Shown: piece after piece, positions 23,262 to 50,045 of the stretch
Layout of the letters: every line of letters starts with the position of its first letter
How positions within the stretch are numbered: the first letter of the stretch is position 1
Assembly (NCBI RefSeq): GCF_020521555.1
Contig: NZ_BPWA01000001.1
Location: forward strand, 1,302,001 to 1,366,000
DNA length: 64,000 bases
Reading direction: 5' to 3'
Source: Rodentibacter sp. JRC1
Lineage (GTDB): Bacteria > Pseudomonadota > Gammaproteobacteria > Enterobacterales > Pasteurellaceae
The notes under the pieces: generated by a model
Databases searched by the model: none
Told to the model about the DNA's origin: nothing
The model's input: the letters and a program-made list of their open reading frames with translations, nothing else
Translations under genes and position numbers: made by a program

Positions 23262-25532
23262 TTACTCTTGAACATAATAAAATGTCATAAACAAGGTGAG
23301 TACGATACCTATCCCTACACTTAACCCAAAGGCCGATACGGCAGGTGTTGTGCTAAGTCCGAGCAAAATAAACGAAATAAGCGTGGTACAACAGGCCAAT
23401 AGAATAGAAACTTTTTTATCTTTTATCGGTTCTTTTGCCGTTTGCATATAAGCGGTGTAATCTATACCGATAGCAGAAACCAGTAGTAAACCAAACATTA
23501 CAAACAGACTTATTGGTAAGTTAAACCAGCCGAAAATTGCCACCGTCATGATGATTGCAGAAAACGGAATCAGTAACATTTTTGCGCTTTTCTTCAATCC
23601 GAAATATTTCCACAGTAATAAACCTGCGAATAAAAAAGAGAGTAATTTCAACCAAGCGGCTTGATTGCGAGTTTCCTGAAACGAGAGATTTAAAGAGGCG
23701 CGTTTATCCTGTAAAAAAATATGTTGATTGTCCGCCAATTCGGTAAGTGCGGTGATATTTTGAGGATTTGTTATTTTTACTATACCGCCAATGTGATGCT
23801 TCCCTAAATCGCCTAAATACAGAGATTGCCAAGCTTGACCGAACTGAGTTTTTAAGGCTTGTTGTAAGTTTATAAGCGGTTTATTTGCCAAATCTTTTAG
23901 TGAGTTTTCCACTGCACCAAGCGGTATGCCGATTTCTTCCAAAATAGCATAATCCTCCGAGTTAATTTTTTGGCTAACTTCTGCAATAAAATTTTTTTGC
24001 TCATCCTCGGATAATAACCATTGGCTTAATGATTGATGTGCGATTTGTCGGCTTTCTAATTGCCGGCTCAACCGGCGGGATTGTTCTAGCAATGCGTTAT
24101 CATCTTCCGCTACGACCAAAAAATATTGACTGCCGAAATCTATTCCTGTCAGTTTTGCAATTTGTTGTAATTGCGCTACCAGCTGTGGTGGCATTGCTAT
24201 CCATTGGCGAATATCATCTTGCCATTTACTTTTACTCAATCCGATACCAACAAAAATTAACAATGCGACAAACAAACAGATTTTCGTTTTTTTGTTCAAT
24301 GTAACTTGAAAAATTTCAAAAGGGTTTGATCGCTTGTTGTGACGGTAATTCTTAAATAACGGCGGTAAATAAAGCAAAGTCGCACAAATTGCGCCAATTA
24401 AAGCAAAAGCGGAGAAAAGTGCGGTCTGTTTTAACACCGGTAATGGAGTAAAACCAAGCAGGCCGTACCCCAGCAATGTAACGAAAAGGCTAATAAAGAA
24501 CGTGAAACGTAAACGGTTCATTGCTTGTTGCGGCTGCCAATTTAAATTAAAGAGTGATGAGGAAAGCCAATGTAGCGGAAAATCAATGAGTACGCCGACA
24601 AGACTTGTGCCGACTACCAGCGTTAAAATATGTATTTGCCCGAAAAACAACAGGGTTGCCACTACACCAAATAACATTCCTACCACAATAGGCAAAAACA
24701 ACCAAAGTACGCGTAGTGTCCGAAATACGCTAACCAATAACAATAGTGTTAAACCAATTCCAAGCGTACTCATCAGAATGCTTTCTTGCTCTGCTTGTTG
24801 CTTGGCATATGCGGAAAAAAGAGAGGTGGATGCCAGTAAGAGCTCACCTTGTTGCACTTCAATAAATTGCCTATTTTGTTCCGTGAATTTCAATAACGAC
24901 TGACTTGGCGTAAAAAAATCCTTTTGATTCAGCTCCGCTCTTAGCAAAACCCAAGTGTATTTATCTGCGGGGATAAAGACCATTCCATTTTCCGCATTCC
25001 ATTGAATATTCGGTGAAAGCCGATTTTGATTGATAAAACGCCCAAAGCCAAGCCAATCCCGTTCGATTGTTATCAAACCGGTTTGCGCAAAAGGGTTCAC
25101 TATTTGTTCGGCATATTGCTGAAAATATCCTTTTGCATTCGTGAGTAACTGATTACGCTGATTTTCCGGCAGACCCGCAACACTTAACGAATCAATCTCT
25201 TGTTGAAGTTGACTGATGTTCGGCTGAAATTTGCTGTCGATTCGAGTGAATAGATGGCTTTGTTGCCACTGTTTACTCAGCTGTTCTGTGAGAGTAAAGG
25301 CTTTAGCACGATTAGAATGCCCGATTAAAGCGATGAATTGGCGGTTAAGCTGCTGTTCTTGAATCTGATCGGCTTTAGATTGCACCGCTGACCAATGTTG
25401 TTCTTGGGGTAACAAGGCTTTGAGATCGGTTTCAAGCAGATGATTTTTCTGTATTTGGAGGCCTAAAAATAGCACGGCTCCAATAATCATCAGAGCATAA
25501 AGCGCTCGACAAGCGGTGAGATAACGAGACAT
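23262..25532 (-). CDS. MMPL/RND-type exporter of the aryl polyene cluster
   Basis: A 756-residue inner-membrane exporter with about twelve helices in two halves, each with one helix followed by a large periplasmic domain and then a bundle of five helices. Typical RND/MMPL stretches are VGTSLVGVLIDFPLHWL and VSAIGIDYTAYMQTA. It corresponds in role to ApeM of E. coli and Xenorhabdus aryl polyene clusters, thought to move the lipid-linked polyene outward with the LolA-like partner encoded just upstream. It is the last gene of the cluster. It carries both Hin- and Actinobacillus-type uptake signals. Confidence 0.85.
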   Translation of the reverse strand: MSRYLTACRALYALMIIGAVLFLGLQIQKNHLLETDLKALLPQEQHWSAVQSKADQIQEQQLNRQFIALIGHSNRAKAFTLTEQLSKQWQQSHLFTRIDSKFQPNISQLQQEIDSLSVAGLPENQRNQLLTNAKGYFQQYAEQIVNPFAQTGLITIERDWLGFGRFINQNRLSPNIQWNAENGMVFIPADKYTWVLLRAELNQKDFFTPSQSLLKFTEQNRQFIEVQQGELLLASTSLFSAYAKQQAEQESILMSTLGIGLTLLLLVSVFRTLRVLWLFLPIVVGMLFGVVATLLFFGQIHILTLVVGTSLVGVLIDFPLHWLSSSLFNLNWQPQQAMNRLRFTFFISLFVTLLGYGLLGFTPLPVLKQTALFSAFALIGAICATLLYLPPLFKNYRHNKRSNPFEIFQVTLNKKTKICLFVALLIFVGIGLSKSKWQDDIRQWIAMPPQLVAQLQQIAKLTGIDFGSQYFLVVAEDDNALLEQSRRLSRQLESRQIAHQSLSQWLLSEDEQKNFIAEVSQKINSEDYAILEEIGIPLGAVENSLKDLANKPLINLQQALKTQFGQAWQSLYLGDLGKHHIGGIVKITNPQNITALTELADNQHIFLQDKRASLNLSFQETRNQAAWLKLLSFLFAGLLLWKYFGLKKSAKMLLIPFSAIIMTVAIFGWFNLPISLFVMFGLLLVSAIGIDYTAYMQTAKEPIKDKKVSILLACCTTLISFILLGLSTTPAVSAFGLSVGIGIVLTLFMTFYYVQE

Positions 25533-25544
25533 TTTACAAAGGAT

Positions 25545-26129
25545 CTAATTTAATGCCGATTGTGCCAAAGCCGATAACGGCTGATTTAATCGTATATTTT
25601 CAAATTGAATAAGGGTGCGATCGCCTTGTTTTTCTTTCAGCTCGATCGAATTAACCACAATATCGCCCTCAATGGTAATTTGATCAAAAATTTGTTTCAT
25701 TAATAAACTGTTTGGTTTTAACAATAATTGCCAATTTGAAGCAGACCCCGTCAGGCTAAACTCAAATTGGCTTGATAATGCGGATATATCGCCACTAAGT
25801 AATCCTAAAAACAATTGGATTTGTTCCGCTTGCCCCATACTGGAATTAGTCACCCAGTTTGAACCATTCCACTGAAAAATCCCCTGAGCAGTCACTTTCA
25901 TTTGGCTCGCAAACGGTTTTTCCATTTGCCATAGTAGCCCTTTTTTTGCCACTAAAGTAAATTTTCCGGTGGCAACAATCGGCTTTACTAACGATTTTAA
26001 AAAACGTTGCTGACTAAAATCACCTTGTACGGATTGCGGTTTTTGTAATTGTTGAATCAGCTCGGCTTGAGAAAATCCCCATGAAAGCGGACTAAAAAAA
26101 AGTAAAAATAAAAACAGATATTTTTTCAT
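25545..26129 (-). CDS. LolA-like outer-membrane carrier of the aryl polyene cluster
   Basis: A 194-residue periplasmic protein with an N-terminal signal peptide (about residues 1-18). The LolA-like pattern includes VQGDFSQQRFLKSL, KGLLWQMEKPFASQM and LLSGDISAL. Corresponds in role to ApeL. Expected to shuttle a lipidated polyene from the exporter to the outer membrane, by analogy with LolA and lipoproteins. It shares one base with the upstream thioesterase stop and lies 12 bases before the exporter gene. Confidence 0.85.
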   Translation of the reverse strand: MKKYLFLFLLFFSPLSWGFSQAELIQQLQKPQSVQGDFSQQRFLKSLVKPIVATGKFTLVAKKGLLWQMEKPFASQMKVTAQGIFQWNGSNWVTNSSMGQAEQIQLFLGLLSGDISALSSQFEFSLTGSASNWQLLLKPNSLLMKQIFDQITIEGDIVVNSIELKEKQGDRTLIQFENIRLNQPLSALAQSALN

Positions 26130-26584
26130 TAGCGTTCCCCTACAAGCGGTCGAAAACCCTTAAAATTTTGCACCGCATTTCTCCACGATAATGGCGTTTC
26201 AAATTGTGTTTCTCGGCTTACAATTTCAATTGCCATTTGGGTCGTCGAGCCTTTAGTTAGCTTTTCACCGGTTATCACATCAACAATAACATAATCAAAT
26301 CGGATACAGCTTTCATATTCGACCAATGCCAGTTCCACGCAAATTTTTTGGCGAAAAAGTGCCGGTTTGACATATTTCAAATCAAGCGCCACGATCGGAT
26401 ACGCAAAACCCTGTTCACGCATGACATCATAGGTATAACCAATTTCGTCCAAAAAGGCACAGCGCGCCATTTCTAGGTATTTTACATAATGCCCATGCCA
26501 CATAATGTTCATTGAATCCACATCAAAGAACTGAACCTCATACTCAGATTGATGTTTGCAATAAATATGTTTTTTCATTCTCAT
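26129..26584 (-). CDS. Hotdog acyl thioesterase (YbgC/4HBT-like)
   Basis: A ~151-residue hotdog thioesterase. The catalytic region EVQFFDVDSMNIMWHGHYVKYLE carries the conserved Asp of the 4-hydroxybenzoyl-CoA thioesterase/YbgC class. Corresponds in role to ApeK, proposed to hydrolyse or edit acyl-ACP intermediates. The start is uncertain: TTG at 26593, ATG at 26584 and ATG at 26578 are all in frame and none has a strong ribosome-binding site. A Hin-type uptake signal lies just upstream (26595-26603). Confidence 0.82.
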   Translation of the reverse strand: MRMKKHIYCKHQSEYEVQFFDVDSMNIMWHGHYVKYLEMARCAFLDEIGYTYDVMREQGFAYPIVALDLKYVKPALFRQKICVELALVEYESCIRFDYVIVDVITGEKLTKGSTTQMAIEIVSRETQFETPLSWRNAVQNFKGFRPLVGER

Positions 26585-26628
26585 AGTGATCAAAAAGTGC
26601 GGTCAATTTGCCGCACATTTTACGAAAT

Positions 26629-27054: not shown

Positions 27055-27108
27055 ATTGTTCTCCTATCTAAAACCATATTGTACACACCATAGTGAATTA
27101 AATTCACT

Positions 27109-28035
27109 TTATTTTTGTTGCCAAAAATCATAAAAATTAAACCATAAATGTGGATTTTTTGCACATTCTTTTGCAAGTAAATCGGCATACTGTTGCATTA
27201 CGTGGTGAATATGTTGTTCACGTACTTTACCACGTCCCGTGATACCGCTAGAGAAATGCCGCAGTTTTAAACGATATTTGCCGTTTTCTTTTAAGCTGAA
27301 AATGGTATTAATCGGTGCTTTAAGGAGAGCCGCCAACAGCCAAGCGCCTTCGGGAAATTCAGCCGCTTTGCCTAAAAAATTAATCGCATAGGTTTTATCG
27401 CCTCGTAGCGGAATGCGATCAGCGGCAATGGCAATCCATTCGCCTTGTTCTATTTTTTCAGATAATGCCAGCATTTTTTGTGCATCCAGTTCTTCCACCT
27501 GAATAAGCGGTAATTCATCTGCGCCGGCTTCAACTAAGGCGTGATTAAAAGCTTCAGCGTGTTTACTATGAACCAAAGCATTTAACTTAAAATTTGGGTG
27601 ATGTCCGTTATTCAGCAAGGCACGACAAATTTCAATATTGCCGAAGTGGGAACAGATTAATATTTGCCCTCGACCGCCGGCATCAATTTCGGCATAGAGA
27701 TTTTCGCTGTCGTCAATCACTAAATCCGCATAATGAATTTGATGTTGCCATACGGCAAAACGGTCGGTAATCGCCTCGCCAAAGGCGAGAAACTGACGAA
27801 AAACCGCCGCTTTTTTTAACCGCACTTGGGGGAAACAAGCGGTCAGATTTTGTTGATATTCTGCAATATAATGCCGTGCTTTGCGTGAAGTGAGGTAAAA
27901 ATATAACACAACCCAGAAAGTACAAAAGCGAATCAGCCAAAGTGGGCAATATCGCACAATCCATTGGGTTAGTTTCAGAAAAAAGGCCGTTCCCCGTTCT
28001 TGTTGCTGCGCCCAATGTTTTGGGTTTTCCGTCAT
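27109..28035 (-). CDS. LpxL/HtrB-type acyltransferase of the aryl polyene cluster
   Basis: A 308-residue inner-membrane acyltransferase resembling lipid A late acyltransferases, with an N-terminal anchor and the HX4E motif in CSHFGNIEICRALL. It likely attaches an acyl group to the polyene-bearing glycolipid. The ATG at 28035 is preferred because it overlaps the glycosyltransferase stop (ATGA) and has GGGAA upstream; ATG 28041 is the alternative. In other clusters the glycosyltransferase and acyltransferase may be one protein (ApeJ); here they are separate, coupled genes. Confidence 0.82.
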   Translation of the reverse strand: MTENPKHWAQQQERGTAFFLKLTQWIVRYCPLWLIRFCTFWVVLYFYLTSRKARHYIAEYQQNLTACFPQVRLKKAAVFRQFLAFGEAITDRFAVWQHQIHYADLVIDDSENLYAEIDAGGRGQILICSHFGNIEICRALLNNGHHPNFKLNALVHSKHAEAFNHALVEAGADELPLIQVEELDAQKMLALSEKIEQGEWIAIAADRIPLRGDKTYAINFLGKAAEFPEGAWLLAALLKAPINTIFSLKENGKYRLKLRHFSSGITGRGKVREQHIHHVMQQYADLLAKECAKNPHLWFNFYDFWQQK

Positions 28036-28757
28036 GACCATTTCCCTGTTAATAAGCGCATTAACATTGTAAAAAACAGCCGTGCGTGCATTTTGCTAAT
28101 CAACCAATTATCCGCCAAACCTCGAAAATGCGAAACTCCGCCTTCATCATATTTTACCGGTGTTTCTACCCAAATCATGGGGATTTTCCGCCATTGGCAA
28201 CGCACCAAAATTTCAATATCGAAATCCATACGATCACCTAGCTTCTCTTGAGTAACAATAGGGACAACTGCGGCTAACGGATACAAACGAAAACCACACA
28301 TACCGTCTTCAATTTGAGTCGATAAGGTATTTACCGCTATCCAAAAGTTGGTAATTTTACGCCCATACAAACGGGCTTTAGGGGCATCCTCTCCATAAAT
28401 CGGTTTACCACAAATAAGTGCGGTCGGATTTTTATGCGATTTTTCTAAAAATGTCGCAATATCCGCCAAGTTATGCTGGCCGTCCGCATCCACTTGAATC
28501 GCGTGAGTAAAACCTCGTTTAAAGGCTTCCGCCAAACCGATTTTCACCGCTGCACCTTTGCCGCCGTTTTGTGGATTATACACAATAGAAACCGATTCAT
28601 TTTCGAAGGTTGCCAACGCTTTTTTATGCTCTTCACTTGAGCCGTCATCCACCACCAACACGGCTAAATCAAAAGCCTGTAGCTGCTCGATCACCCGACC
28701 GATTGTGTCGGAATGATTATAGTGCGGAATAACGGCAACGGGGTTAAAGTTGTTCAT
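28032..28757 (-). CDS. Family 2 glycosyltransferase
   Basis: A 241-residue GT-A glycosyltransferase with N-terminal IPHYNHSDTIGRVIEQL, LVVDDGSSEEHK and the metal-binding VDADGQHN. Similar to the dolichyl-phosphate-mannose/polyprenyl-phosphate class. It probably adds a sugar to the polyene lipid or builds its anchor. Overlaps the downstream acyltransferase start by four bases. Confidence 0.85.
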   Translation of the reverse strand: MNNFNPVAVIPHYNHSDTIGRVIEQLQAFDLAVLVVDDGSSEEHKKALATFENESVSIVYNPQNGGKGAAVKIGLAEAFKRGFTHAIQVDADGQHNLADIATFLEKSHKNPTALICGKPIYGEDAPKARLYGRKITNFWIAVNTLSTQIEDGMCGFRLYPLAAVVPIVTQEKLGDRMDFDIEILVRCQWRKIPMIWVETPVKYDEGGVSHFRGLADNWLISKMHARLFFTMLMRLLTGKWS

Positions 28758-28769
28758 TTTTAATCCGAA

Positions 28770-30068
28770 TTAATGTGCTTTGCATATTTGTTCAAAATCC
28801 TGTCGCAAAATCTTTGACTGGCTATTGCGCGGTAATTTATCGGTAAACCGCCAATAGCGTGGTAAAGCAAAGCGTTCCTGTTTGGTTAATAAATGCTGGC
28901 GCAACGTCCGAATCAGCGCTTTACGCCCCTGTTTTTGATATTCTGCCATTCCTTCATCGGATAACGCCACCCACGCTAATGGACGATGTTTATGATCAAT
29001 ATGCGGCGCAATAAAGCAATCGGCAACCCAATGGTGCTGTATTAAATCCTGTTCAATACGAATCAGTGAAATCCGTTTATCGCCCAGCTTAGCAATGCGG
29101 TCAATGCGCCCTAACAACAAAAAGCCTTGCGGATAAAACTCTACCGCATCGGCAGTTTGCTCTCGCTGCGGCACGCGATGAGATTCGACCCATAGTGCTC
29201 CCTCCTCATTAACGCCGACTGTCACGTCCGGCACGGTTGTCCAGTATTCCGTGCCTTGCCGAATAGCAATCACGCCGGTTTCCGTGCTGCCGTAGCCTTC
29301 AATTAGCGACACATTTAATTTTTGTGCAATTCTCATTGCCTCGACTTCCGCCAATGCACCGCCCGAGGTGACGATACCGCAAAGATTATCGTAATGAATA
29401 TCTTTGCGGTTAATATCCAAACCGGTGAGAAAAGTCGGGCTGGTAATCCAAAGCGCTTTGCCGAAATGACGGCTGTGTTGTAAAAAACTATCAGGGAAAG
29501 TATGTTGTAGACGGTCAATCACCCAACCGCGCAACAACGGTAACATCACACGATAAGTTAGCCCATAAAAATGCTGCACACTGACACTGCTCACCAAATG
29601 CACCTGTTGTTCGGTGGCAAAGGGTAAAATTTGTGCGACGATTTCCGCTTCCTGCCAAAGTTGCTCGGCTGTTTTTACGACGATTTTGGCATTGCCGCTG
29701 CTGCCGGAGGTTTTTAACCAGACTTCGGTCTGATTGCCTTGCCCAACAAGCGGTCTGTTTGAGATAATTTTTTGCGAAATGCCATAATCGGCAAAACCGG
29801 CATCATTAAAGAGTAGGTCGGCATTTTCATCAACCCATTGTTGATTATCGCCAACGAGATTTGGCGGCAACAGTACCCGCACTTTAGCATTTAGGCAGGC
29901 AAGTAAAACGCAGGCAAAATAAGTGGCATCATCAAACCATAATGCCACCGCTTGAATATTATCTTGCTGTAACTGCGCAGAAATTTGATGGGCGCGGTAA
30001 TAAAAATCCGCCCGAGACCATTCCGGATTCAGTGCGATAGGAAGAGAAGATGAAGTGATCGTTTTCAT
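28770..30068 (-). CDS. Aryl/acyl AMP ligase, stand-alone copy
   Basis: A 432-residue ANL-superfamily adenylating enzyme. The phosphate loop KTSGSSGNAKIVVK, the GYGSTETG motif and the catalytic lysine region LPRNSQSKI near the C-terminus are intact. It is a clear paralogue of the ligase at 30777-32441 but lacks the C-terminal hotdog domain. Its role may be to activate a second carboxylic acid, such as a different aryl starter; ApeH in other clusters loads 4-hydroxybenzoate. Separated by 146 bases from the membrane-protein gene before it. Confidence 0.82.
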   Translation of the reverse strand: MKTITSSSLPIALNPEWSRADFYYRAHQISAQLQQDNIQAVALWFDDATYFACVLLACLNAKVRVLLPPNLVGDNQQWVDENADLLFNDAGFADYGISQKIISNRPLVGQGNQTEVWLKTSGSSGNAKIVVKTAEQLWQEAEIVAQILPFATEQQVHLVSSVSVQHFYGLTYRVMLPLLRGWVIDRLQHTFPDSFLQHSRHFGKALWITSPTFLTGLDINRKDIHYDNLCGIVTSGGALAEVEAMRIAQKLNVSLIEGYGSTETGVIAIRQGTEYWTTVPDVTVGVNEEGALWVESHRVPQREQTADAVEFYPQGFLLLGRIDRIAKLGDKRISLIRIEQDLIQHHWVADCFIAPHIDHKHRPLAWVALSDEGMAEYQKQGRKALIRTLRQHLLTKQERFALPRYWRFTDKLPRNSQSKILRQDFEQICKAH

Positions 30069-30214: not shown

Positions 30215-30766
30215 TTATTTATCTTGAACATATCGCCTCACAAGCCATTCTCCCACAAATAATACGCCCATCAGCACATAAGCAATCACACCGCTATAAA
30301 TCGCCCAATAATGATATTGTTCCAGCAAAATTAACCCGGCAGTCACGGCAATGTTAAAAACAAAAAAGCCGCACCAGACTAGGGTCACATTGCGTGTATA
30401 ACGAATTGCCGCAGGGGGAAGATCAGGCGTTTGTAACCGAGCCAGCCGTTCAATAAAGGATTGGGCACTAAATAGGCTGGCAGTAAAAATAACAAGCATT
30501 ACAAGGCTAATGATAACAGGATACCAATACATTGTTTGCAAGGTTCGGGTAAAGGCGACAATCAGTAGAAAAGCTGTCATAAGCAGCGCAAAAACACGTT
30601 GAAAACCGACCGCACTTATTGCCTTTATACCCCAGAGTAAGGCGAGCAGGCAAGGCAAAATGGATAGAAGGTGACTATTTGATTGCCATAGCCAAATTAA
30701 AGGATAGGCAACGGCGGTAATACCTAATAGCAGATTGATTAAAGGGGAAAACCACGCTATTGCCAT
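30215..30766 (-). CDS. COG4648-type membrane protein of the aryl polyene cluster
   Basis: A ~183-residue protein with six or more hydrophobic helices and the short soluble segment RLARLQTPDLPPAAIRYTRN. Corresponds in position and type to ApeG, a membrane protein of unknown function present in aryl polyene clusters. Two adjacent ATG codons (30769 and 30766) could start it. It overlaps nothing but lies only about 10 bases after the ligase-dehydratase gene. Confidence 0.75.
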   Translation of the reverse strand: MAIAWFSPLINLLLGITAVAYPLIWLWQSNSHLLSILPCLLALLWGIKAISAVGFQRVFALLMTAFLLIVAFTRTLQTMYWYPVIISLVMLVIFTASLFSAQSFIERLARLQTPDLPPAAIRYTRNVTLVWCGFFVFNIAVTAGLILLEQYHYWAIYSGVIAYVLMGVLFVGEWLVRRYVQDK

Positions 30767-30776
30767 CATCGTTACC

Positions 30777-32456: not shown

Positions 32457-32711
32457 TTACTCTGTCTGCGTTTGACTGATTTTTGCCACAGCTTGCACCA
32501 CATCGGCAACGGTGCGCACATTACGGAAATCTTCCGCTTGTAATTTATGCCCGGTTTCACGTTTGATATGATCGATTAAATCAATCGCATCAATGCTGTC
32601 GATCTCTAAATCTTCATACAAGTTGGTCTCCGGCGTAATACTTTTGGGATCGACTTCAAACAGGGTTTCCAGTGCGTTCACTAACAGGGTTTGGATTTCT
32701 TGTTCAGTCAT
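32457..32711 (-). CDS. Acyl carrier protein 2 of the aryl polyene cluster
   Basis: An 84-residue ACP with the phosphopantetheine serine in EIDSIDAIDLIDHIKRETG. The start at 32711 (MTEQEIQTLLVNALETLF) is chosen over a longer open frame because of the family length and the AAGGA ribosome-binding site. Stop and start to the preceding ACP are four bases apart. Corresponds to the ApeE/ApeF pair. Confidence 0.92.
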   Translation of the reverse strand: MTEQEIQTLLVNALETLFEVDPKSITPETNLYEDLEIDSIDAIDLIDHIKRETGHKLQAEDFRNVRTVADVVQAVAKISQTQTE

Positions 32712-40298: not shown

Positions 40299-40326
40299 TT
40301 GCAAAATTTTTGTAAAAAGTGATCCC

Positions 40327-41319: not shown

Positions 41320-41320
41320 T

Positions 41321-41695
41321 TTATATCTCTAATCCCCCAAACGCCTCCCGATACTTCGCCAACTTCTTCTCCCCCAACTTCGCAAAAATCTCCGGTCTAA
41401 AATGCCGTTTGATTTGCCATTGCCAGAAGCCTGTGGCTTGGGCGAGGCTTTGGAGGTCGTAGCGGTTTTTGTACATGAGGTAGTAAATGACTGATTTTTC
41501 GCCGTTTTTGATCGCTTGTAGGGCTTGTTCGGTGAGTTGGTTGAGTTCGTCCACCGCCTGTTCGGTGGCAAATTCTTCTGATTGCCAACCTGTGGTGGTG
41601 CCTGCTTCAAATTTGCCGTTGCGGGTGGCGTAGATGACCTTTTTCTGCCCTTGGAAAATTTTGCTGTCGTCTTGGGGGATTTCATCAATTTCCAT
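41321..41695 (-). CDS. Small conserved-looking protein coupled to darB, unknown
   Basis: A 124-residue soluble, mostly helical protein starting MEIDEIPQDDSKIFQGQK. A short beta-like N-terminus (KKVIYATRNGKFEAGTTTGWQSEEF) is followed by helices rich in charged residues. The ATG at 41695 has an ideal ribosome-binding site (GGAGG, six bases upstream) inside the 3' end of darB, overlapping by 11 bases. A much longer frame upstream is a shadow of darB. I do not recognise the family. Translational coupling to darB suggests a role in the resorcinol branch. Confidence 0.75.
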   Translation of the reverse strand: MEIDEIPQDDSKIFQGQKKVIYATRNGKFEAGTTTGWQSEEFATEQAVDELNQLTEQALQAIKNGEKSVIYYLMYKNRYDLQSLAQATGFWQWQIKRHFRPEIFAKLGEKKLAKYREAFGGLEI

Positions 41696-42827: not shown

Positions 42828-42838
42828 TTTATATTCCA

Positions 42839-42912
42839 TAGGGTGCGTTTGCTAACGCACCATTTTTATTATTGGTTGTGTCGTTATCGGTGCGTTAACA
42901 AACGCACCCTAC
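42839..42912. repeat. Paired palindromic repeat between darA and darB
   Basis: TAGGGTGCGTTTGCTAACG (42839-42861) and an inverted mate (42889-42912) of the GGTGCGTT family. The distal unit reaches into the last codons and stop of darA (42909). It may form a strong hairpin in the darA-darB message. Confidence 0.8.
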
Positions 42913-43820
42913 TCACCCGAAGGCTCGGCAAAATAACGTTTTTGCTCATCCAATTTTTTCTGTATCAGCGGTTTTAGCAGGCGTTTGATTACGGCTGAAA
43001 TTGGCACAACGGTTAAAATCATTGCGACTAGAAATACGATATAGAAATATAAGACAAATTTACGAAAAATCGGCGAAATTTGACCGCACTTTATCAGTAG
43101 TTTGCCCCAAATATGGAAACTTCTTGCGCCGACCTTTTCGCTCATCATCAATTTTTCATCGATTTTTACCGCGCCCATTCCTTGAAAAAGCTTGCAATCA
43201 AGCAGTCGATTTTGCTGAAAAATTTGCAAAAGTTTTTCACCAAAGCGGGCTGCATCTTGGATTTCACTTTCCGCAATGCCTGCGCTCGGTAAATTACCGA
43301 CCTTTTTCTTGCCTGTTAGCATCCAAAGTGGTGTGGTGATGAAACTCGCCCAGTCGTTCGATTGATCCACTTTCACCACGTTGCCAATCAAGTTCGCTCC
43401 ACAATCGGCAAGCAATTTTTTCATTTTTTCTTGGGCTTGCAGCCACATATTCCGGCAACCAATAAGCGTGATAACCGGTGTGTCTTTGAGTACGGCTTTC
43501 GCCTGTGGAGATTGTAAGAAAGCGGTTATCGGCTGGCTTGGCGATAAAAACCATACCGTATAGGCAATAATGACCAAATCGTATTTTTTACTGCGTAATT
43601 CGGGCGTTTGAATAGGGCTTGGCTGCAAATGCACCGTTTCCGGAAAGGTGTTAAAAAACGACAGAAACCGCCACGGGAAAGCGTAGGCGGTTTGCGGTTG
43701 AAGTTGACAATGCTCGACAGAAATATCCGTTTGCCCAAGCAATGGTTGAACGAAATGTTCAGCCAAGCGGTTGAGTTGCCCTGTTTGCGAATAACTGACT
43801 AACAGAATCTTTTTGGTCAT
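42909..43820 (-). CDS. darA: DarA-like dialkylresorcinol condensing enzyme
   Basis: A 303-residue protein matching the dialkylresorcinol condensing enzyme DarA: a flavodoxin-like N-terminus (LLVSYSQTGQLNRLAEHFV), VIIAYTVWFLSPSQPITAFL, a central GCRNMWLQAQEKM and a hydrophobic C-terminal helix (FVLYFYIVFLVAMILTVV). DarA condenses two acyl units to the cyclohexanedione precursor of dialkylresorcinols together with DarB. No DarC-type aromatase is recognisable in the window. It follows the KS at 43839 after 18 bases and precedes darB. Confidence 0.85.
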   Translation of the reverse strand: MTKKILLVSYSQTGQLNRLAEHFVQPLLGQTDISVEHCQLQPQTAYAFPWRFLSFFNTFPETVHLQPSPIQTPELRSKKYDLVIIAYTVWFLSPSQPITAFLQSPQAKAVLKDTPVITLIGCRNMWLQAQEKMKKLLADCGANLIGNVVKVDQSNDWASFITTPLWMLTGKKKVGNLPSAGIAESEIQDAARFGEKLLQIFQQNRLLDCKLFQGMGAVKIDEKLMMSEKVGARSFHIWGKLLIKCGQISPIFRKFVLYFYIVFLVAMILTVVPISAVIKRLLKPLIQKKLDEQKRYFAEPSGE

Positions 43821-43838: not shown

Positions 43839-45089
43839 TTATTTTCCTTGCCAACGTTTAAAAATTAATGAGGTATTCACACCACCGAATGCAAAATTGT
43901 TGTTCATTACATAATCGGTTTGGATAAACTTGCCGTCACCTTGAATATAATTAAGTTCGCCGCAGCGTTCGTCCACATTTTCAAGATTGAGCGTCGGCGC
44001 AAACCAACCGTCACGCATCATTTCAATAGAAAACCAACTTTCTAATGCACCGCAAGCACCGAGCGTATGCCCCAAATAACTTTTTTGCGAGCTGATCGGC
44101 ATTCTTGCGCCAAATACAGCGGAAGTTGCTTGAGTTTCAGCGATGTCGCCTTTTTCCGTTGCCGTACCGTGTCCGTTCACATAGCCGATTTGTTCAGGCA
44201 AAATCCCTGCATCTTTTAAGGCAATTTCCATACAACGTTGCATGGTGGATGCTTGCGGTTGGGTTACGTGGCTGCCATCACTGTTAGCCCCATAACCGAC
44301 CACTTCGGCGATAATGTTTGCGCCACGGGCTAAGGCGTGCTCCAACTCTTCCAACACGAAAATACCCGCTCCCTCACCGATCACTAAACCGTCTCGGTTT
44401 TTATCATAAGGGCGCGGTGTGCCTTTCGGGTTATCGTTGTTGCGACTTGCCGCATAAAGGCTATCGAAAACATAAACTTCGGAAGGGCAAAACTCTTCGC
44501 CGCCGCCCGCTAACATCATTGGGATCATACCGTATTTAATCGCTTCATAAGCATAACCAATCCCTTGCGAGCCCGATGAACAAGCACTGGAAGTCGGGAT
44601 AATTCGCCCCTGTAAGCCAAAGAAAATGCCGATATTCGCTGCAGTGGTGTGCGGCATTGCTCGCACATAGGTGGAGGCATTAAAGGTGTCCGATTTGCCC
44701 GTCATTAAAAGTTCTGCCATATCGCGCACATCAGCAGTGGAGCCGGTGCTTGAACCGCTTGCTACCCCCATATTGCCGTTCAATACAAGCGGTGAAATTT
44801 CGCCATTTTTTAGCAAGCCCGCATTCGTTAAGGCTTGCTCTGCTGCATCCACACAGAGTTGAGATACACGTCCCATGCTGCGAAGTTGTTTTCTTGTCCA
44901 GTGGCTTGGTGGGGTATAATTTCCAATCGGCGCGCCAAGTTGAGCCTCTAACTCCGGATATTTATCCAGCCAGCCCATATTTTGCACGGCATTTTCTTTA
45001 CGTTCAAAGGCGGATTTCACTTCCGTCCAGCTACGTCCGAAAGCAGTTACCGCACCAATACCGGTTACTACAACTCGTTTTGTATTCAT
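43839..45089 (-). CDS. FabF-type ketosynthase of the aryl polyene cluster
   Basis: A 416-residue full-length ketosynthase with Cys in TSSACSSGSQGIGYA, His in NGHGTATEKGD and His in YLGHTLGACGALE, a complete KAS II triad. Corresponds by position after the ketoreductase to ApeR. Likely makes or elongates chains for the polyene pathway. Carries an Actinobacillus-type uptake signal at 44785. A palindromic REP pair separates it from the ketoreductase gene. Confidence 0.87.
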   Translation of the reverse strand: MNTKRVVVTGIGAVTAFGRSWTEVKSAFERKENAVQNMGWLDKYPELEAQLGAPIGNYTPPSHWTRKQLRSMGRVSQLCVDAAEQALTNAGLLKNGEISPLVLNGNMGVASGSSTGSTADVRDMAELLMTGKSDTFNASTYVRAMPHTTAANIGIFFGLQGRIIPTSSACSSGSQGIGYAYEAIKYGMIPMMLAGGGEEFCPSEVYVFDSLYAASRNNDNPKGTPRPYDKNRDGLVIGEGAGIFVLEELEHALARGANIIAEVVGYGANSDGSHVTQPQASTMQRCMEIALKDAGILPEQIGYVNGHGTATEKGDIAETQATSAVFGARMPISSQKSYLGHTLGACGALESWFSIEMMRDGWFAPTLNLENVDERCGELNYIQGDGKFIQTDYVMNNNFAFGGVNTSLIFKRWQGK

Positions 45090-45111
45090 TATTATCTCTG
45101 TATTTTATTTT

Positions 45112-45181: not shown

Positions 45182-45191
45182 AAATTATTAA

Positions 45192-45920
45192 TTAACACAA
45201 CCCACCATTCACTCCAATCACTTGACGGGTGATATAAGACGCTTTTTCGTCCATTAAGAAATCCACTGCATGAGCCACTTCATCAGGATTTCCCATTCGT
45301 TCCATTGGAATGGCCTTTAAAATTTGTTCAAGCGGTAGGTTTTCACCCAAAATTTCCGTGTCGATTAAACCCGGAGCTACGCAATTTACGGTGATTTTAC
45401 GTTTAGCAAGCTCAACGGCCAATGCTTTTGCTGCACCGATTAAACCGGCTTTCGAGGCACTATAGTTTACTTGTCCGCGGTTACCGATAATACCGGAAAC
45501 CGAAGTAATACAGACGATTCGCCCTGCTTTACGGCGGCGAATCATCGGCATCATGATGGGGTGTAATACATTGTAAAAACCATCCAAATTTGTTCGCAAT
45601 ACCGAATCCCAATCTTCATCGCTCAGTGCCGGAAAAGCATTATCACGGGTTAAGCCTGCATTTAACACCACACCGTAATAGGCACCGTTTGCTTCTACAT
45701 CTGCTTCTAAAACCGCTTTAGCTTGCTCACGATTACTTACATCAAATTGCAACACGCGCACATTTTTGCCTAAATTTTTGACCGCACTTGCAACCTCTTC
45801 AGCATCTTCAACACGACTGCGGCAATGCACCACAATGTCAAAGCCCGAATGAGCAAGTTTCAACGCAATTGCTTTGCCGATACCTCGGCTGGAGCCGGTG
45901 ATTAATACGGTATTTGTCAT
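45192..45920 (-). CDS. 3-oxoacyl-ACP reductase of the aryl polyene cluster
   Basis: A 242-residue short-chain dehydrogenase of FabG type: NAD(P) motif TGSSRGIGKAIA, NAG in VLNAGLTRDN, the catalytic YSASK preceded by Ser in CITSVSGIIG, and GLIDTE. Corresponds to ApeQ, which reduces beta-ketoacyl-ACPs during polyene extension. Its ATG overlaps the stop of the AlbA_2-type gene upstream (ATGA). Confidence 0.9.
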   Translation of the reverse strand: MTNTVLITGSSRGIGKAIALKLAHSGFDIVVHCRSRVEDAEEVASAVKNLGKNVRVLQFDVSNREQAKAVLEADVEANGAYYGVVLNAGLTRDNAFPALSDEDWDSVLRTNLDGFYNVLHPIMMPMIRRRKAGRIVCITSVSGIIGNRGQVNYSASKAGLIGAAKALAVELAKRKITVNCVAPGLIDTEILGENLPLEQILKAIPMERMGNPDEVAHAVDFLMDEKASYITRQVIGVNGGLC

Positions 45921-47848
45921 AATTGTCCTACTGTTTTATATGCCTGTTTCGGATGATTCTTAGCCGTTGGATAGGCTAGTTCTAACTTATTCTCTTTGAC
46001 TAATTGATTGAGATAACTTTTCCGTAATGTATCCGCTTTTTTATTGAGTAAAAGTGCAAGATCAGAAAGACTGATATAACCGGATTGGCAAAGTTGCAAA
46101 ATACCATCTACAAATTTTTCTTTACCTATATTTCGGACATCACCTTGTAGCTTGCTTGCGATCAGTTTTAACTGTTGCCATTGCTGGCTGGTTTCAGTAT
46201 CTAGATCTAACTCCGGATTTTCCGGACCTAACTCCGGATTTTCTGAAGCTAACTCCGGATTTTCTGAAGCTAACTCCGGATTTTTGATAAAACTTTTTGC
46301 GAGAATTTTTCCCACCTGATTATCTGGTGTTGGCATCTCTATTTCAGGACGGTGGTAAATTTTATTCTTTTGCTTACCGCTTGCAGAGATCATTTTTAAT
46401 TTTTCTAGCTTTACTAAAGCTAATGTAACATCACGGGAATGCCCTGAAATATGTAAACAAATTTCTTTATGAGTTAGTGCTTCATTAGTATAAATTTCAA
46501 TAACAATCGTTCGCTCTAGCTCAGAAAGCTCTAGGAACTTCTTACCATATTGTTTAGTCAGCGTATCAAAAATTTCCTGTGGATATAAAGAGACAGTTTT
46601 TAATTCTAAAACAGTCTGCTCATTTGGCTCTCTCACTTCTCTTAGTAAAGGCATCCGCCAATGTTGTGTCTTCCAGCCACTTAATATTCTCGGTAACCCT
46701 GAACCTGCTTGGTCACCAAAACGAATATAACGAAACATTTGCGCAAGAAGACGATTACGACAATCTGCATCTCCCCCTTTTAATGCGATTTCAATGGGAA
46801 TTCTCATTAAACCGGGATTACGAAAATAAAAAGAATTAGGCTTTTTAATAATCTGGATGGAGGCTTTATCACTATAATCTGCGTGAATAATTGTATTTGC
46901 TAATGCTTCTCTTAATGCAATATGAACAGGAGTATCTTCTTGTCGTAGTCCATTTTCTATTCTGAAAGGTACCTTAATATTTTCAACTAATTTACGATAA
47001 ACACGTTGAGAAAAATCATACAAATTCCCAGACCATTTCCCATCTAAGGTCACTCTATCAATCCAACGTTCATCAGGGTTACTTGAATGCTCTTGATAAT
47101 CTAGCATATAAAATGGGAATTGATCTTGAATGGCAGTATGAGTTCCAAACATCAATAACCCTGCTGCGGTTAGCCCTTTACGACCTGTTTCACGTTCAGT
47201 TTTATACGCTTTTATTTTTTCTAAAAATACTAAATCAGACAATTCATTCCAAGGGTGGCTAGGATCTAAATTAGCATAGCGTTGGCGATAGTTTCGCACT
47301 GATTCCATATCTAAATCAGCAAGCTGAAAATGCTCAAGCACAATAGAATCTCTAGAATCTTGCGATTGTTCTGCAAGCATTCTTTTTACCTGTTCTTCGC
47401 TTAAACGTTGATCAGATTCATTACACCGTTGGTAACTATTTCCCAATGGATTTCCGTTAAGATAAACTGGTCGTTCTGTTCGCTTAGCTCTGGGAACATA
47501 AACGACTAACAATGATTTTTCGTCACCCAAAGGTAATTCTTTAACAAATGAATTTGTTAACAAGTTAATATTAACTTTCTGTGGGTTATTCACCAGATCA
47601 AAGATCTGTTTTTTAACTTGTGCGACTCTTGTAATGCCTTTAGGAATGTACTTATCTTTCTTTTCTTGCATTCCTAACACAATATATCCACCATCAGTAT
47701 TGGCAAAAGCGCTATAAGTTTCCCACATATCAAAAGGAACTTCACCGAGCCCATCTTTTCCTTGAGCAAGTTTGCACTCTAATTCGGAAGATTCACCTAA
47801 TAGAATCAGATCATCAATACTGTCTAAATGGTCAAAAATATCTTTCAT
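45917..47848 (-). CDS. AlbA_2/Schlafen-like ATP-binding protein
   Basis: A 643-residue protein with an N-terminal AlbA_2 (divergent AAA/Schlafen-like) domain (ESSELECKLA, SAFANTDGGYIVLGMQE), a GHKL-type ATPase segment (REALANTIIHADYSDKASIQI, FRNPGLMRIP) near residues 330-400, winged-helix segments and a heptapeptide repeat NPELASE near 540-565. Such proteins are often annotated as RecG-like regulators and are frequent on mobile islands. It shares one base with the dehydratase stop (TAATG) and overlaps the ketoreductase start (ATGA), so it is inserted with operon-like precision. No biosynthetic role is apparent. Confidence 0.85.
   Translation of the reverse strand: MKDIFDHLDSIDDLILLGESSELECKLAQGKDGLGEVPFDMWETYSAFANTDGGYIVLGMQEKKDKYIPKGITRVAQVKKQIFDLVNNPQKVNINLLTNSFVKELPLGDEKSLLVVYVPRAKRTERPVYLNGNPLGNSYQRCNESDQRLSEEQVKRMLAEQSQDSRDSIVLEHFQLADLDMESVRNYRQRYANLDPSHPWNELSDLVFLEKIKAYKTERETGRKGLTAAGLLMFGTHTAIQDQFPFYMLDYQEHSSNPDERWIDRVTLDGKWSGNLYDFSQRVYRKLVENIKVPFRIENGLRQEDTPVHIALREALANTIIHADYSDKASIQIIKKPNSFYFRNPGLMRIPIEIALKGGDADCRNRLLAQMFRYIRFGDQAGSGLPRILSGWKTQHWRMPLLREVREPNEQTVLELKTVSLYPQEIFDTLTKQYGKKFLELSELERTIVIEIYTNEALTHKEICLHISGHSRDVTLALVKLEKLKMISASGKQKNKIYHRPEIEMPTPDNQVGKILAKSFIKNPELASENPELASENPELGPENPELDLDTETSQQWQQLKLIASKLQGDVRNIGKEKFVDGILQLCQSGYISLSDLALLLNKKADTLRKSYLNQLVKENKLELAYPTAKNHPKQAYKTVGQL
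46207..46284. repeat. 21-bp tandem repeat in the AlbA_2-like gene
   Basis: Three full 21-base units and a partial fourth of CTAACTCCGGATTTTCTGAAG (unit one has variant bases), encoding the heptapeptide NPELASE/NPELGPE. The unit is a multiple of three, so copy-number change would alter length but not frame. Confidence 0.9.
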
Positions 47849-48315
47849 TACTTGCTCACATCCTTTTGAATTTTGCCGTCTTTAGGGCTGAATACATTGA
47901 GCGAACCTTCTAATAACAGGGTTTGAGTGTGATGATCAATGAGTTTACAGTCAAACACCCCGAAACCGGTTACATCTTGAATCGACATTTTTATCTCAAT
48001 GTTTAGTCTGCTACCAATCGGGATCTCGGTTTGATAAATATGCAGTTTGCGTGTGCCAAGTAGATAGCCCAAACGTACTGGTTCATCTTTTTGGCGAGCC
48101 TGAATACCTGCCCACGCCGCAACGCCTTGAGCCATGATTTCAATGCCGGAAAAAGTGGCTAGTTTTCCTGCCTTGAGTAAAATATGATCTGGACGAATTT
48201 CGCTTTCTGCGTGTAAAAAATCCTCACCAAATGAGGTGATACGATCGAGCAAGACCATTTCACCGCTTTGCGGTACAAAGGGAGCAACATTTTTAATGGG
48301 TAAATTTAAACTCAT
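47848..48315 (-). CDS. Hotdog 3-hydroxyacyl-ACP dehydratase (ApeP-like)
   Basis: A 155-residue FabA/FabZ-like hotdog protein (APFVPQSGEMVLLDRI, FSGIEIMAQGVAAWAGIQAR). Corresponds in role to ApeP, reported to act with ApeI in dehydration; here the ApeI-like domain is fused to the ligase at 30.8 kb. The start at 48315 is supported by TAATG overlap with the ketosynthase stop and a GGGGAAAG ribosome-binding site. The longer frame upstream is spurious. Confidence 0.85.
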   Translation of the reverse strand: MSLNLPIKNVAPFVPQSGEMVLLDRITSFGEDFLHAESEIRPDHILLKAGKLATFSGIEIMAQGVAAWAGIQARQKDEPVRLGYLLGTRKLHIYQTEIPIGSRLNIEIKMSIQDVTGFGVFDCKLIDHHTQTLLLEGSLNVFSPKDGKIQKDVSK

Positions 48316-49535
48316 TAGATACTTTCCCCTAAAATTAAAACGGCATTGTTGCCACCGAAGGCGAAAGAGCTGCTTGCGCCGATACGTCTGCCTTCTGCCC
48401 AACGACTGTGCTCGTCCGCAATCATAATTTTGGGGAGACGATCATCTCGAACTCCGTCCCAAAGCTGCGGCGGTAAAATGCCTTGCGGATTATGTTTTCG
48501 GCTAATAATAGACCATAAAATCGCCGCTTCCAATGCACCGGCAGCACCCAATGTATGCCCGGTATACGGTTTAGTGGTTGTGCAAAGGGTTTGATTTCCA
48601 AAAACTTTTGCAACCGCAATGGTTTCCATTTGATCATTATGTATCGTGCCTGTGCCATGCAGGTTAATCCACCCTATTTGATTTGGTGAAAGTGCGGCTG
48701 ATTTTAAGGCATTTTCAAAAGCGGAAATTGCCCCTAAACCTTCAGGATGCGGACTAGACATATGATAAGCATCGCTGCTTGCACCGTAGCCCAGTAGTTG
48801 TAAGCTATCATTATCTAATGGCATTTTGGTCATCACGAAAGCGGCTGCGCCTTCACCAATGTTAATGCCGTTACGATTTACCGAGAGTGGATTCGTTCGT
48901 TGTTCGGAAAGCACTTCTAACGAGCCAAAACCGCTTATCGTCAATGGCGATAAGGTATCCACACCACCGCAAATTACCGCATCACACAAGCCGGCTTTTA
49001 GTAAACGGGCTGCGGAAATCAACGCTCTCGCACCTGAGGTACAAGCTGTTGAAATACCGTAACCCGCATTTTGAATACCGTATTGGTAGGAAACAAAATC
49101 TGCCGGTGCGGAAAAATATTGTTGTGGCTGATTAAAATCTTTACCTGACCAATCATTATGCGCTGCGGCATATTTAAATACAGGGATATTTTCATCTACA
49201 CCGGTTGTGGATGTTCCCATTACTACGCCCACACGTTCTTTACCAAATCGACCGATGACCTGTGCAATTTGCTCTTCAATCTGTGCAAGGGCGTGCCATA
49301 ATAACTGATTATTGCGGCTGCGATATTCCATTGGTAAATCGGCAGGAAAAGGGCGGAGTTCAAGATTTACTTCGCCAAACACGCCCGCTTTACCACTGAT
49401 ACCGTTTTCTCTAAATGCTTTATCGGAAAGATGAAGTGGAGACGGTTTGCTGTTAAGCAAGCAATCTAAATGCGCTCCCACACCCTCACCAATAGCGCTG
49501 ATGATCGCCGGTTTAGTTAAAAAAAATGCAGCCAC
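48315..49535 (-). CDS. Beta-ketoacyl synthase of the aryl polyene cluster
   Basis: A 406-residue full-length ketosynthase with Cys in GISTACTSGARALI, His in NLHGTGTIHND and His in YTGHTLGAAGALEA. Corresponds by position to ApeO, the catalytic partner of the chain-length-factor-like ApeC. It likely extends the aryl starter with malonyl units. Coupled to the dehydratase by a one-base overlap. Confidence 0.88.
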   Translation of the reverse strand: MAAFFLTKPAIISAIGEGVGAHLDCLLNSKPSPLHLSDKAFRENGISGKAGVFGEVNLELRPFPADLPMEYRSRNNQLLWHALAQIEEQIAQVIGRFGKERVGVVMGTSTTGVDENIPVFKYAAAHNDWSGKDFNQPQQYFSAPADFVSYQYGIQNAGYGISTACTSGARALISAARLLKAGLCDAVICGGVDTLSPLTISGFGSLEVLSEQRTNPLSVNRNGINIGEGAAAFVMTKMPLDNDSLQLLGYGASSDAYHMSSPHPEGLGAISAFENALKSAALSPNQIGWINLHGTGTIHNDQMETIAVAKVFGNQTLCTTTKPYTGHTLGAAGALEAAILWSIISRKHNPQGILPPQLWDGVRDDRLPKIMIADEHSRWAEGRRIGASSSFAFGGNNAVLILGESI

Positions 49536-49565
49536 GTATCCCTCTACCTTTAAATTTATTATGCC

Positions 49566-50045
49566 TTATTGCATTAACTCTTCAATTTTCCAACGGCTGC
49601 CATCAGCAAGATTAATATCTATGATTGGCTGCTTGTGATGGATTTTCCATACAAATTTATGATTTATTTGATAAACCTGACCACTTGCCGTTTGTTCAAT
49701 AGCACTAAATTCAAATAATGGTGTTGAGCTAAAAGCCGTTGCCAAGGCTGAAAAAAGCTGCTTTGCCTGATTATTCGGCATCACAAAACCATCATTTTGC
49801 CAACCTTGTTCGGATAAAATTAATCGTGCCAACGGCGCACCAAGGGGATCGGTTTGTACCCAACGCCATTGGGTTTCATTAAATTGCACCGAAAGCAAAC
49901 TTGCTTGCTGTACTCGGTTTTGTTCATCAAGTTGCTCAACTTTAAATAAACGACTTTCTACAGATTGTGCCGGAAGCGACTTAATTATAAGGCTAGAACA
50001 AGCAGCAACAGCAAACATTATCAGAATAATAAGTGCCTTTTTCAT
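49566..50045 (-). CDS. DUF3261 lipoprotein, first gene of the aryl polyene cluster
   Basis: A 159-residue protein with a lipoprotein signal (IMFAVAACSS, cysteine near residue 16). Corresponds to ApeN, a DUF3261 lipoprotein of aryl polyene clusters, probably outer-membrane-associated and needed for transport or display. It precedes the ketosynthase by 30 bases. The ~115-base gap to ftsN upstream contains a Hin-type uptake signal near 50143 and likely the operon promoter. Confidence 0.8.
   Translation of the reverse strand: MKKALIILIMFAVAACSSLIIKSLPAQSVESRLFKVEQLDEQNRVQQASLLSVQFNETQWRWVQTDPLGAPLARLILSEQGWQNDGFVMPNNQAKQLFSALATAFSSTPLFEFSAIEQTASGQVYQINHKFVWKIHHKQPIIDINLADGSRWKIEELMQ

Follow-up and report, generated by a model that had tools for sequence, protein, structure and literature searches.

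An aryl polyene-dialkylresorcinol gene cluster of probable arcuflavin kind in Rodentibacter sp. JRC1

We analysed a 64,000-nucleotide stretch of the Rodentibacter sp. JRC1 genome (G000; 2.39 Mb in two contigs), which we call the window (C1:1302001-1366000). We are fairly confident that it carries a hybrid pigment cluster of the arcuflavin kind, in which an aryl polyene (APE) would be joined to a dialkylresorcinol (DAR). The product is best read as an APE-DAR ester of the arcuflavin/flexirubin type, predicted to be a yellow membrane pigment, because the gene order matches that of the Azoarcus arcuflavin DAR operon. The direct basis for this is gene content, gene order, motifs, the predicted fold of DarA and the co-occurrence with APE genes. 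We infer the ester, the linker and the transport, and also the reactions, which are drawn from work on Azoarcus, flexirubin and APE systems.

The gene cluster

A run of 31 minus-strand genes fills positions 50045 down to 23262. It consists of 28 APE and DAR genes that recur in relatives and three intruders (a Schlafen/AlbA-type gene, a RhuM-type gene and a broken Y1 transposase). The intruders had been missed in the original prediction, which was made from the sequence alone; its coordinates, strand and most functions were borne out by hidden Markov model (HMM) families over curated cut-offs. Because the genes are co-oriented and tightly packed (the widest gap is 211 bp, and 21 of the 30 gaps are 25 bp or less), have no internal stops and recur in the same order in relatives, we do not regard the locus as a chance arrangement. 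All 28 core frames are open, and active-site motifs are present in every protein inspected for them.

The DAR module is about 9 kb long and lies between the ketosynthase (KS) gene apeO and the lipoB/chain-length-factor (CLF) genes. In a relative without the module (G055), ApeO and the CLF are 397 bp apart and a DarA remnant is found close by. The module genes are listed here with window coordinates, strand and evidence.

42909-43820, minus: DarA, predicted flavin-dependent dialkylresorcinol aromatase; named homologues, predicted fold
41685-42839, minus: DarB, ketosynthase predicted to condense and cyclise two acyl units; PRK06816 (StlD/DarB) 555 bits (cut-off 450), PDB StlD 5gk0 419 bits
41321-41695, minus: DarD of Azoarcus (DarG family of NCBIfam); NF053536 DarG_fam 162 bits (cut-off 70)
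39312-40304, minus: BtrH-like acyltransferase (darE of Azoarcus, DarH of NCBIfam); NF053550 515 bits (cut-off 300), BtrH_N and DUF4872
38046-38771, minus: ABC transporter ATPase darF; PF00005 112 bits
36808-38052, minus: ABC-2 permease darI; PF12698 90 bits
36446-36730, minus: acyl carrier protein (ACP) darC; PF00550 23 bits (cut-off 20.8), DSL serine motif
35487-36446, minus: DAR-module ketosynthase darJ; ketosynthase N- and C-terminal domains
35014-35508, minus: ketosynthase-N-like partner darK; weak Ketoacyl-synt_2, 20.3 bits (cut-off 25), conserved position after darJ

The original prediction had already placed DarA, DarB, the BtrH-like protein, the ABC genes, an ACP and a KS between a KS and the CLF gene, and they are indeed there. 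It had called the upstream KS ApeR-like; this protein is ApeO-like by its PRK09116 score (696 bits), and ApeR is encoded at 48315-49535. It had also reported that no DarC aromatase could be recognised, which was a mislabel. In Table 1 of PMC3949708 darA is the DAR-aromatase and darC an ACP; both are in the window, so no aromatase is missing. A lack of HMM matches for DarA and DarB had been named as grounds for dropping the prediction; DarB is matched by PRK06816, and DarA matches no curated model (nothing in Pfam or NCBIfam at E<=1e-3) and has relatives that are named dialkylresorcinol condensing enzymes.

Several of these relatives, at 69-87% identity among the 120 listed of 3660 homologues found, carry that name (also as 'dialkylrecorsinol'), and the predicted structure of DarA has a flavodoxin/WrbA fold. 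DarB falls below the 550 cut-off of the narrower resorcinol_DarB 'exception' model, with 453 bits. The predicted model of DarD (pLDDT 75) gave no confident fold match. We considered DarJ as a KS-like ester-former that lacks the catalytic His and ruled this out, as the His is present once the sequences are aligned. The Cys-His-His triad is kept in the window's DarJ and in 14 aligned relatives, leaving aside the L111 row, which had picked up an ApeR-like paralogue.

The APE genes surround the module.

49566-50045, minus: lipoprotein 'lipoC', first gene of the cluster; lipobox by eye, position beside apeR kept in relatives
48315-49535, minus: ApeR-type ketosynthase; PRK09185 429 bits (cut-off 407), motifs TACTS, HGT and GHTLG
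47848-48315, minus: ApeP-type dehydratase, start by eye; PF22817 58.5 bits (cut-off 27)
45192-45920, minus: ketoreductase of FabG2 type; NF004200 (PRK05653.1-5) 400 bits (cut-off 273)
43839-45089, minus: ApeO-type elongating ketosynthase; PRK09116 (cut-off 470), PDB 4ewg 502 bits and 7f27 467 bits
34494-34937, minus: lipoprotein 'lipoB'; lipobox by eye
33732-34484, minus: chain-length-factor-like protein, ApeC type; PF13723 179 bits, PDB 6qsp_B 72.5 bits and 7f28 54 bits
32983-33753, minus: PlsC-type acyltransferase; PF01553 46 bits, Hx4D motif
32716-32973, minus: acyl carrier protein; PRK09184 82 bits (cut-off 70)
32457-32711, minus: acyl carrier protein, start by eye; PRK05350 109 bits (cut-off 65)
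30777-32441, minus: AMP-dependent aryl/acyl ligase fused to an ApeI-type dehydratase; PF00501 and PF22818, PDB 6qsr 37 bits over the dehydratase part
30215-30769, minus: membrane protein; position between both ligases kept in relatives, no Pfam match over cut-off
28770-30068, minus: second AMP-dependent ligase; PF00501 50 bits, duplicate also in relatives
28032-28757, minus: family 2 glycosyltransferase; PF00535 62 bits
27109-28041, minus: LpxL-type acyltransferase; PF03279 53 bits
26629-27054, minus: lipoprotein 'lipoA'; lipobox by eye, in many relatives
26129-26593, minus: hotdog thioesterase (4HBT); PF13279 38 bits
25545-26129, minus: LolA-like periplasmic carrier; PF03548 44 bits
23262-25532, minus: large membrane protein, presumed pigment exporter by position; kept as last gene beside lolA

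The KS-CLF pair, ketoreductase, two dehydratases, ACPs and ligase of an APE pathway are thus all present. The set that had been predicted stands, with its thioesterase, acyltransferases, glycosyltransferase and LolA-like protein, except that the MMPL exporter and DUF3261 lipoprotein it included have no Pfam support: neither MMPL in 23262-25532 nor DUF3261 in 49566-50045 appeared at E<=5, a range in which the HMMER filters drop most matches above about 0.1. A PDB sequence search with the exporter gave a single unrelated match (E 0.6).

Two AMP ligases are found in most of the examined relatives with the DAR module and in G055, and only one was seen in G040 and G107, which also lack the module. 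In the window the ApeI dehydratase forms a fusion with the upstream ligase, whereas in G009, G006 and G131 (P0146, P0145 and P0136), and probably also in G007 and G044, it is joined to the downstream one.

Comparison with known pigment clusters

The DAR operon of Azoarcus sp. BH72 is given in Table 1 of PMC3949708 as darA (DAR-aromatase), darB (DAR-cyclase), darD, darE (BtrH-like), darF (ABC ATPase), darG and darH (Phd and PilT), darI (permease), darC (ACP), darJ (KS) and darK. The order darA-B-D-E-F-I-C-J-K is common to both, by assigned families rather than by alignment of the Azoarcus proteins themselves. The window lacks Phd and PilT and has its own intruders, so that both operons contain accessory genes. 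They also share a polyene ligase, KS, KS-N-like protein, ketoreductase, dehydratase, LolA, glycosyltransferase and acyltransferases. As described in that paper, Azoarcus differs in having two unlinked polyene loci (gene numbers 3910-3921 and 0253-0264), with the DAR operon (0283-0293) about 20 genes from the second; genes for a chorismatase of XanB2 type, a methyltransferase and a halogenase are found in its polyene and DAR loci. The window has instead one contiguous run with ApeO/ApeR-type genes, two AMP ligases and no recognised starter enzyme.

The flexirubin clusters of Chitinophaga and Flavobacterium, as set out in PMC3992019, likewise combine polyene genes with DarA/DarB, LolA, a glycosyltransferase, an acyltransferase and an exporter. 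The Chitinophaga cluster holds a tyrosine ammonia-lyase, FlxA, and the window's genome has no member of that family. The flexirubin-specific NCBIfam models all score below their cut-offs (FlxB 273 of 340 bits, LolA2_flexi 77 of 125, flexirubin_DarG 120 of 170). Judged by its genes, the cluster is closer to arcuflavin than to flexirubin. The original prediction of a 'flexirubin-like' hybrid was right as to the APE-DAR kind, by homology, gene order and co-occurrence, and 'arcuflavin-like' is more exact because the DAR part is collinear with the Azoarcus operon. The KOH colour shift that had been proposed as a check would not discriminate, because the yellow Azoarcus compound is described in PMC3949708 as having no colour shift in alkali.

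Hybrid clusters of this kind are established, since the same paper counts DAR genes in 16 of 39 polyene genomes, nine of these within or beside the polyene cluster. An embedded DAR module is therefore not new in itself. The main text of PMC3949708 does not mention Pasteurell-, Haemophilus, Aggregatibacter or Actinobacillus. APE clusters are reported in Aggregatibacter in PMC11278768, where a resorcinol class is also counted. We found no description of an APE-DAR hybrid in Pasteurellaceae in the open-licence literature searched, which is weak evidence of absence.

The APE clusters of Escherichia, Xenorhabdus and Frischella perrara resemble the window in ApeO, CLF, ketoreductase, ApeP, ApeI, ACPs, ligase, thioesterase, LolA, family 2 glycosyltransferase and acyltransferases. 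To our knowledge they contain no DAR module. In the window, unlike in these clusters, the module comes between ApeO and the CLF that partners it, and there are two AMP ligases. The same DAR gene set recurs in other arrangements in hybrid or DAR clusters from elsewhere in the Pasteurellaceae and from Neisseriaceae, Orbaceae and Pseudomonas. The module lies beside the APE genes on the opposite strand in Aggregatibacter, Avibacterium and several Rodentibacter, is split into two opposed arms in Pseudomonas and Orbaceae, and is mixed into the APE genes in several Neisseria.

One tailoring difference was seen among the relatives. Thirteen of them, one without DAR genes, have a gene for a FAD oxidoreductase/tryptophan-halogenase-like protein between the exporter and lipoC (e.g. 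L036:7436-8668). This gene is not in the window's cluster, which is the part of the genome that was searched for it.

Distribution and descent

We counted the genes in 140 Pasteurellaceae genomes from 43 genera and in a class-level sample of 274 genomes. In the family sample the BtrH-like DarE/DarH is found in 35 genomes (15 genera), with stops in two (G017 and G032), DarA in 35 plus one remnant, and ApeP in 51. One or the other DAR gene is present in 36 genomes, a count that excludes the weak 48-residue DarA remnant of G055. All 36 also carry ApeP (Fisher p 9e-22, not corrected for phylogeny), and 15 of the 51 ApeP genomes have no DAR gene. Taking ApeP as a proxy for APE, we therefore see no case in the family of DAR being kept without it. 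The original prediction had treated the combination as striking for the family, which does not agree with these counts.

For the class sample we used only matches over the curated cut-off, which reduced DarB from 258 matches to 16, the BtrH-like protein from 16 to 13 and ApeP from 36 to 28. ApeP is present in 12 of the 16 DarB genomes, as against 28 of 274 overall. A search for relatives found 200, and the best 80 were kept as named loci; these include Actinobacillus, Rodentibacter, Conservatibacter, Bibersteinia, Aggregatibacter and Avibacterium, as well as Neisseria, Eikenella, Gilliamella, Frischella and Pseudomonas.

In a DarA tree of 68 rows, a clade with 100/100 support unites one Neisseria with every one of the 41 Pasteurellaceae rows, among which some proteins occur twice. 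The Neisseria protein, from Neisseria sp. ZJ106 (P0039), is 76% identical to the window's DarA and nests within the Pasteurellaceae, so it is likely a transfer between families. Read most simply, the tree would imply a single origin in the family, followed by a single transfer to Neisseria. Among the genomes in the tree, darA clearly follows apeO amid the APE genes in G118, G007, G006, G009, G056, G048, G039, G131 and G049, all of which are in the window's half of the clade. That half has weak support of its own (83/33), and in some of its genomes (G116, G117, G126 and G127) the module stands next to the APE genes.

The window contains 44 copies of AAGTGCGGT, which we take to be the Haemophilus-type DNA uptake sequence, where 0.44 are expected. 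We tried to use AAGTGCGGT and ACAAGCGGT, presumably two dialects of this sequence, as a sign of recent transfer of the cluster. The cluster has 13 copies of the former and 7 of the latter and the flanks 31 and 2 (Fisher p 0.019). We rejected this candidate, as the genome's own his and atp regions give 13 AAGTGCGGT and 6 ACAAGCGGT and the contrast is therefore meaningless.

Proposed pathway and alternatives

In the pathway that we propose, an AMP ligase would load an aromatic acid onto an ACP, and this starter would be extended to a conjugated aryl polyene acid by the ApeO/ApeC-like KS pair together with the ketoreductase and both dehydratases. Meanwhile, DarB would condense and cyclise two acyl units to give a cyclohexanedione, from which DarA, a flavodoxin-like protein, would form a 2,5-dialkylresorcinol by oxidation. 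The polyene would then be esterified to the resorcinol by an acyltransferase, for which the BtrH-like protein is the most plausible candidate, and the LolA-like, ABC and membrane proteins may carry the product to the outer envelope. The linker could also be the second AMP ligase or one of the two lipid-type acyltransferases; a ligase-like protein, FlxW, is proposed as the linker for flexirubin in PMC3992019.

Several observations weigh against this pathway or parts of it. We tried the BtrH-like protein as a strict marker of polyene-resorcinol joining, and it failed: in the class sample 4 of its 13 carriers (among 274 genomes) are without ApeP, which is present in the other 9, and all three DarB-positive genomes that lack the BtrH-like protein do have ApeP. 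The protein does not track DAR and APE together, and the co-occurrence test picks out no single linker. Four of the 16 DarB genomes of that sample have no ApeP, and some DAR-positive relatives are degraded (G032, G094 and G017). The Pfam scan found no family for the exporter or the lipoproteins. There is also the matter of the aryl starter. As had been predicted for the window, neither a chorismate lyase nor a tyrosine ammonia-lyase is found, and this extends to the whole genome: UbiC (PF04345) is absent with a positive E. coli control, and aromatic/tyrosine ammonia-lyase (PF00221) is absent where 5 of 14 control genomes were positive. The further claim that the starter is made elsewhere is thus not supported. 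The chorismatase N-domain PF21168, which we take to cover XanB2, had no match in the genome and none in the control genomes either. The aromatic acid may be taken up from the host, or made by an enzyme that we did not recognise.

A quite different explanation is that the two modules are neighbours but unjoined, so that the cell would make an APE lipid, as the APE modules of Escherichia and Xenorhabdus do, along with a free or separately anchored dialkylresorcinol. The 15 Pasteurellaceae genomes with ApeP and no DAR genes would fit this, as would the location of DAR and APE at separate loci in G138 and G080 (and 17 kb apart in G018), the lack of a linking enzyme singled out by co-occurrence and the plain APE reported for Frischella perrara (PMC10104596). 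Against it, none of the 140 Pasteurellaceae has DAR without ApeP, the DAR module here sits inside one co-directional gene run, and in Azoarcus the DAR was found in the hybrid pigment with free DAR undetected, according to PMC3949708. We consider two separate products unlikely. It is more doubtful still that the cluster is decaying, with an operon cut by the intruders and the pigment no longer made. The broken transposase and the foreign genes inside the run do suggest this, and Bibersteinia trehalosi (L111) lacks darA, darB, darI, darC, darJ and darK and has a partial darF. Yet the core frames and inspected motifs of the window are sound, the two intact intruders are co-directional and lie close against their neighbours (gaps of -1, -4, 1 and 22 bp), and in G118, the closest relative, the core is still 75-100% identical (63% for lipoC) despite an insert in darK.

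We give very little credence to the idea that the RhuM and Schlafen-type genes act in the pathway or regulate it. Both genes do run in the same direction as the cluster and fit closely into it, and RhuM-type open reading frames (ORFs) stand beside darD in 11 regions including the window, one of them between two darD matches. However, the module-bearing relatives G009, G020 and G056 show no RhuM or Schlafen match, unrelated genes fill the same slots in other relatives, and the his operon of the same genomes is likewise rich in inserts.

If the arcuflavin-type reading holds, roughly one in four of the sampled Pasteurellaceae species would encode an outer-membrane pigment usually discussed for Bacteroidetes and environmental proteobacteria. 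These bacteria live with animal hosts, and the antioxidant role predicted for the pigment could be tested in them by single gene deletions. The lack of a recognised starter enzyme makes the question of the aryl starter a concrete one.

Intruding genes

Three genes of the run are not part of the pathway set.

45917-47848, minus: Schlafen AlbA_2/RecG-C-like intruder, non-pathway; PF04326, PF13749
40327-41319, minus: RhuM family intruder, candidate phage-defence gene, non-pathway; PF13310 349 bits, PADLOC PDC-S05 483 bits
38768-39310, minus: broken Y1 (IS200-like/RAYT-type) transposase; PF01797 positions 46-120 only

The Schlafen-type gene shares 1 bp with apeP and 4 bp with fabG, and its protein has weak PADLOC matches to pAgo-related models (48 bits at most). 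The apeP/fabG junction has an insert in 7 of 36 cases, five of them Schlafen-type. RhuM is separated from darD by 1 bp and from the BtrH-like gene that comes next by 22 bp. The broken transposase lies in the darE/darF gap with a G+C-rich repeat on each side, as seen by eye. Counting the window, eight Y1-related ORFs are found at this junction, with 156-175 aa in six relatives and 129 aa in G118.

Inserts in the relatives gave 47 clusters of ORFs of at least 88 aa, of which 30 representatives were scanned with Pfam, RhuM and Y1 were covered through the window and 15 clusters were left out. The families include SduA, AAA_21 with DUF4276, AAA_21 with PIN, TacA1 with GNAT, Phd with PIN, Fic, YhcG and reverse transcriptase. 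Other inserts have no defence link (ankyrin, helix-turn-helix, DUF535 and similar), and eight representatives have no Pfam family at E<=0.01. PADLOC, applied to 10 chosen insert proteins, found HEC-01A/B, SduA, PtuA-like, Drt8, ThsB and PDC-S05, and nothing for two. Across relatives, the APE-DAR operon has between its own genes others of defence or toxin-antitoxin type (PDC-S05 RhuM, Schlafen AlbA_2, HEC-01, Shedu, Drt8, ThsB, TacA-GNAT, Phd-PIN and Fic), in the window and at L071, L075, L049, L080, L062, L043 and L076.

The darD/darE slot also holds genes or pairs of genes without a Pfam family at the same threshold, at L025:14934-16266, L027:16100-17257, L049:3503-4120, L060:18186-19028, L062:3558-4556, L069:17526-18278 and L082:18892-19788. 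By their neighbours these are candidates for undescribed accessory, possibly defence, families. At darK of G118 (L026:3136-5494) there is an insert of 2.5 kb that carries a gene for a UvrA-like ATPase and is followed by a repeat of the 3' part of darK.

Insertions in other operons

We counted inserts of at least 350 bp at operon junctions. In the same genomes, inserts occupy 53 of 257 DAR junctions, 18 of 412 APE junctions and 99 of 213 junctions of the his operon. The APE count includes the DAR-less G040, G055 and G107, and 5 of its 18 inserts are dehydratase tails fused to the downstream ligase rather than cargo; the his count covers 33 of the 36 DAR genomes (no hisD was matched in G020, G072 and G084). 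The ATP synthase operon, at 7 junctions in each of 20 genomes, was free of inserts by a table read by eye. We had considered the DAR cluster as a special docking site for defence genes and ruled this out, because inserts are more frequent still in the his operon of these genomes.

Among the named loci, DAR junctions have inserts in 31 of 130 cases in Pasteurellaceae (19 loci, overlapping the counted genomes) and in 11 of 89 in Neisseriaceae and Cardiobacteriaceae (14 loci; 0 of 13 at darD/darE). The count is 0 of 21 for the 3 Orbaceae loci and 1 of 241 for the 44 Pseudomonas-like loci; neither of these two groups has a darE/darF junction. Having inserts is thus a feature shared by two or more dispensable operons of Pasteurellaceae, and to a smaller extent by those of Neisseriaceae, rather than one of this cluster alone. 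At darD/darE and darE/darF we took ORFs of 70 aa or more, longest first: 54 of 55 share the direction of the operon, and one of them lies between two darD matches. At darF/darI, 11 of 16 insert ORFs are oriented against it.

We offer one tentative idea, which we think has a less than even chance of being right. In competent Pasteurellaceae, dispensable operons such as those for the pigment and for his may act as docking frames that swap genes of phage-defence and toxin-antitoxin type, mostly co-directional and with the operon left unbroken. The exchange would probably occur by transformation on the conserved neighbours, which is a guess, and would resemble the 'minimal mobile elements' of Neisseria. 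If true, the RhuM and Schlafen-type genes would be working defence cargo under the pigment promoter. Accessory genes within dispensable operons, some of them of phage-defence families, would matter for operon annotation and for the discovery of defence genes.

The his operon of Pasteurellaceae (L184, L185-L216) is itself riddled with unrelated accessory genes. In the window's genome (L184:1247-12527) its inserts encode DJ-1/PfpI, DUF559, UDG-like, Bro-N, isochorismatase and DUF2726 proteins.

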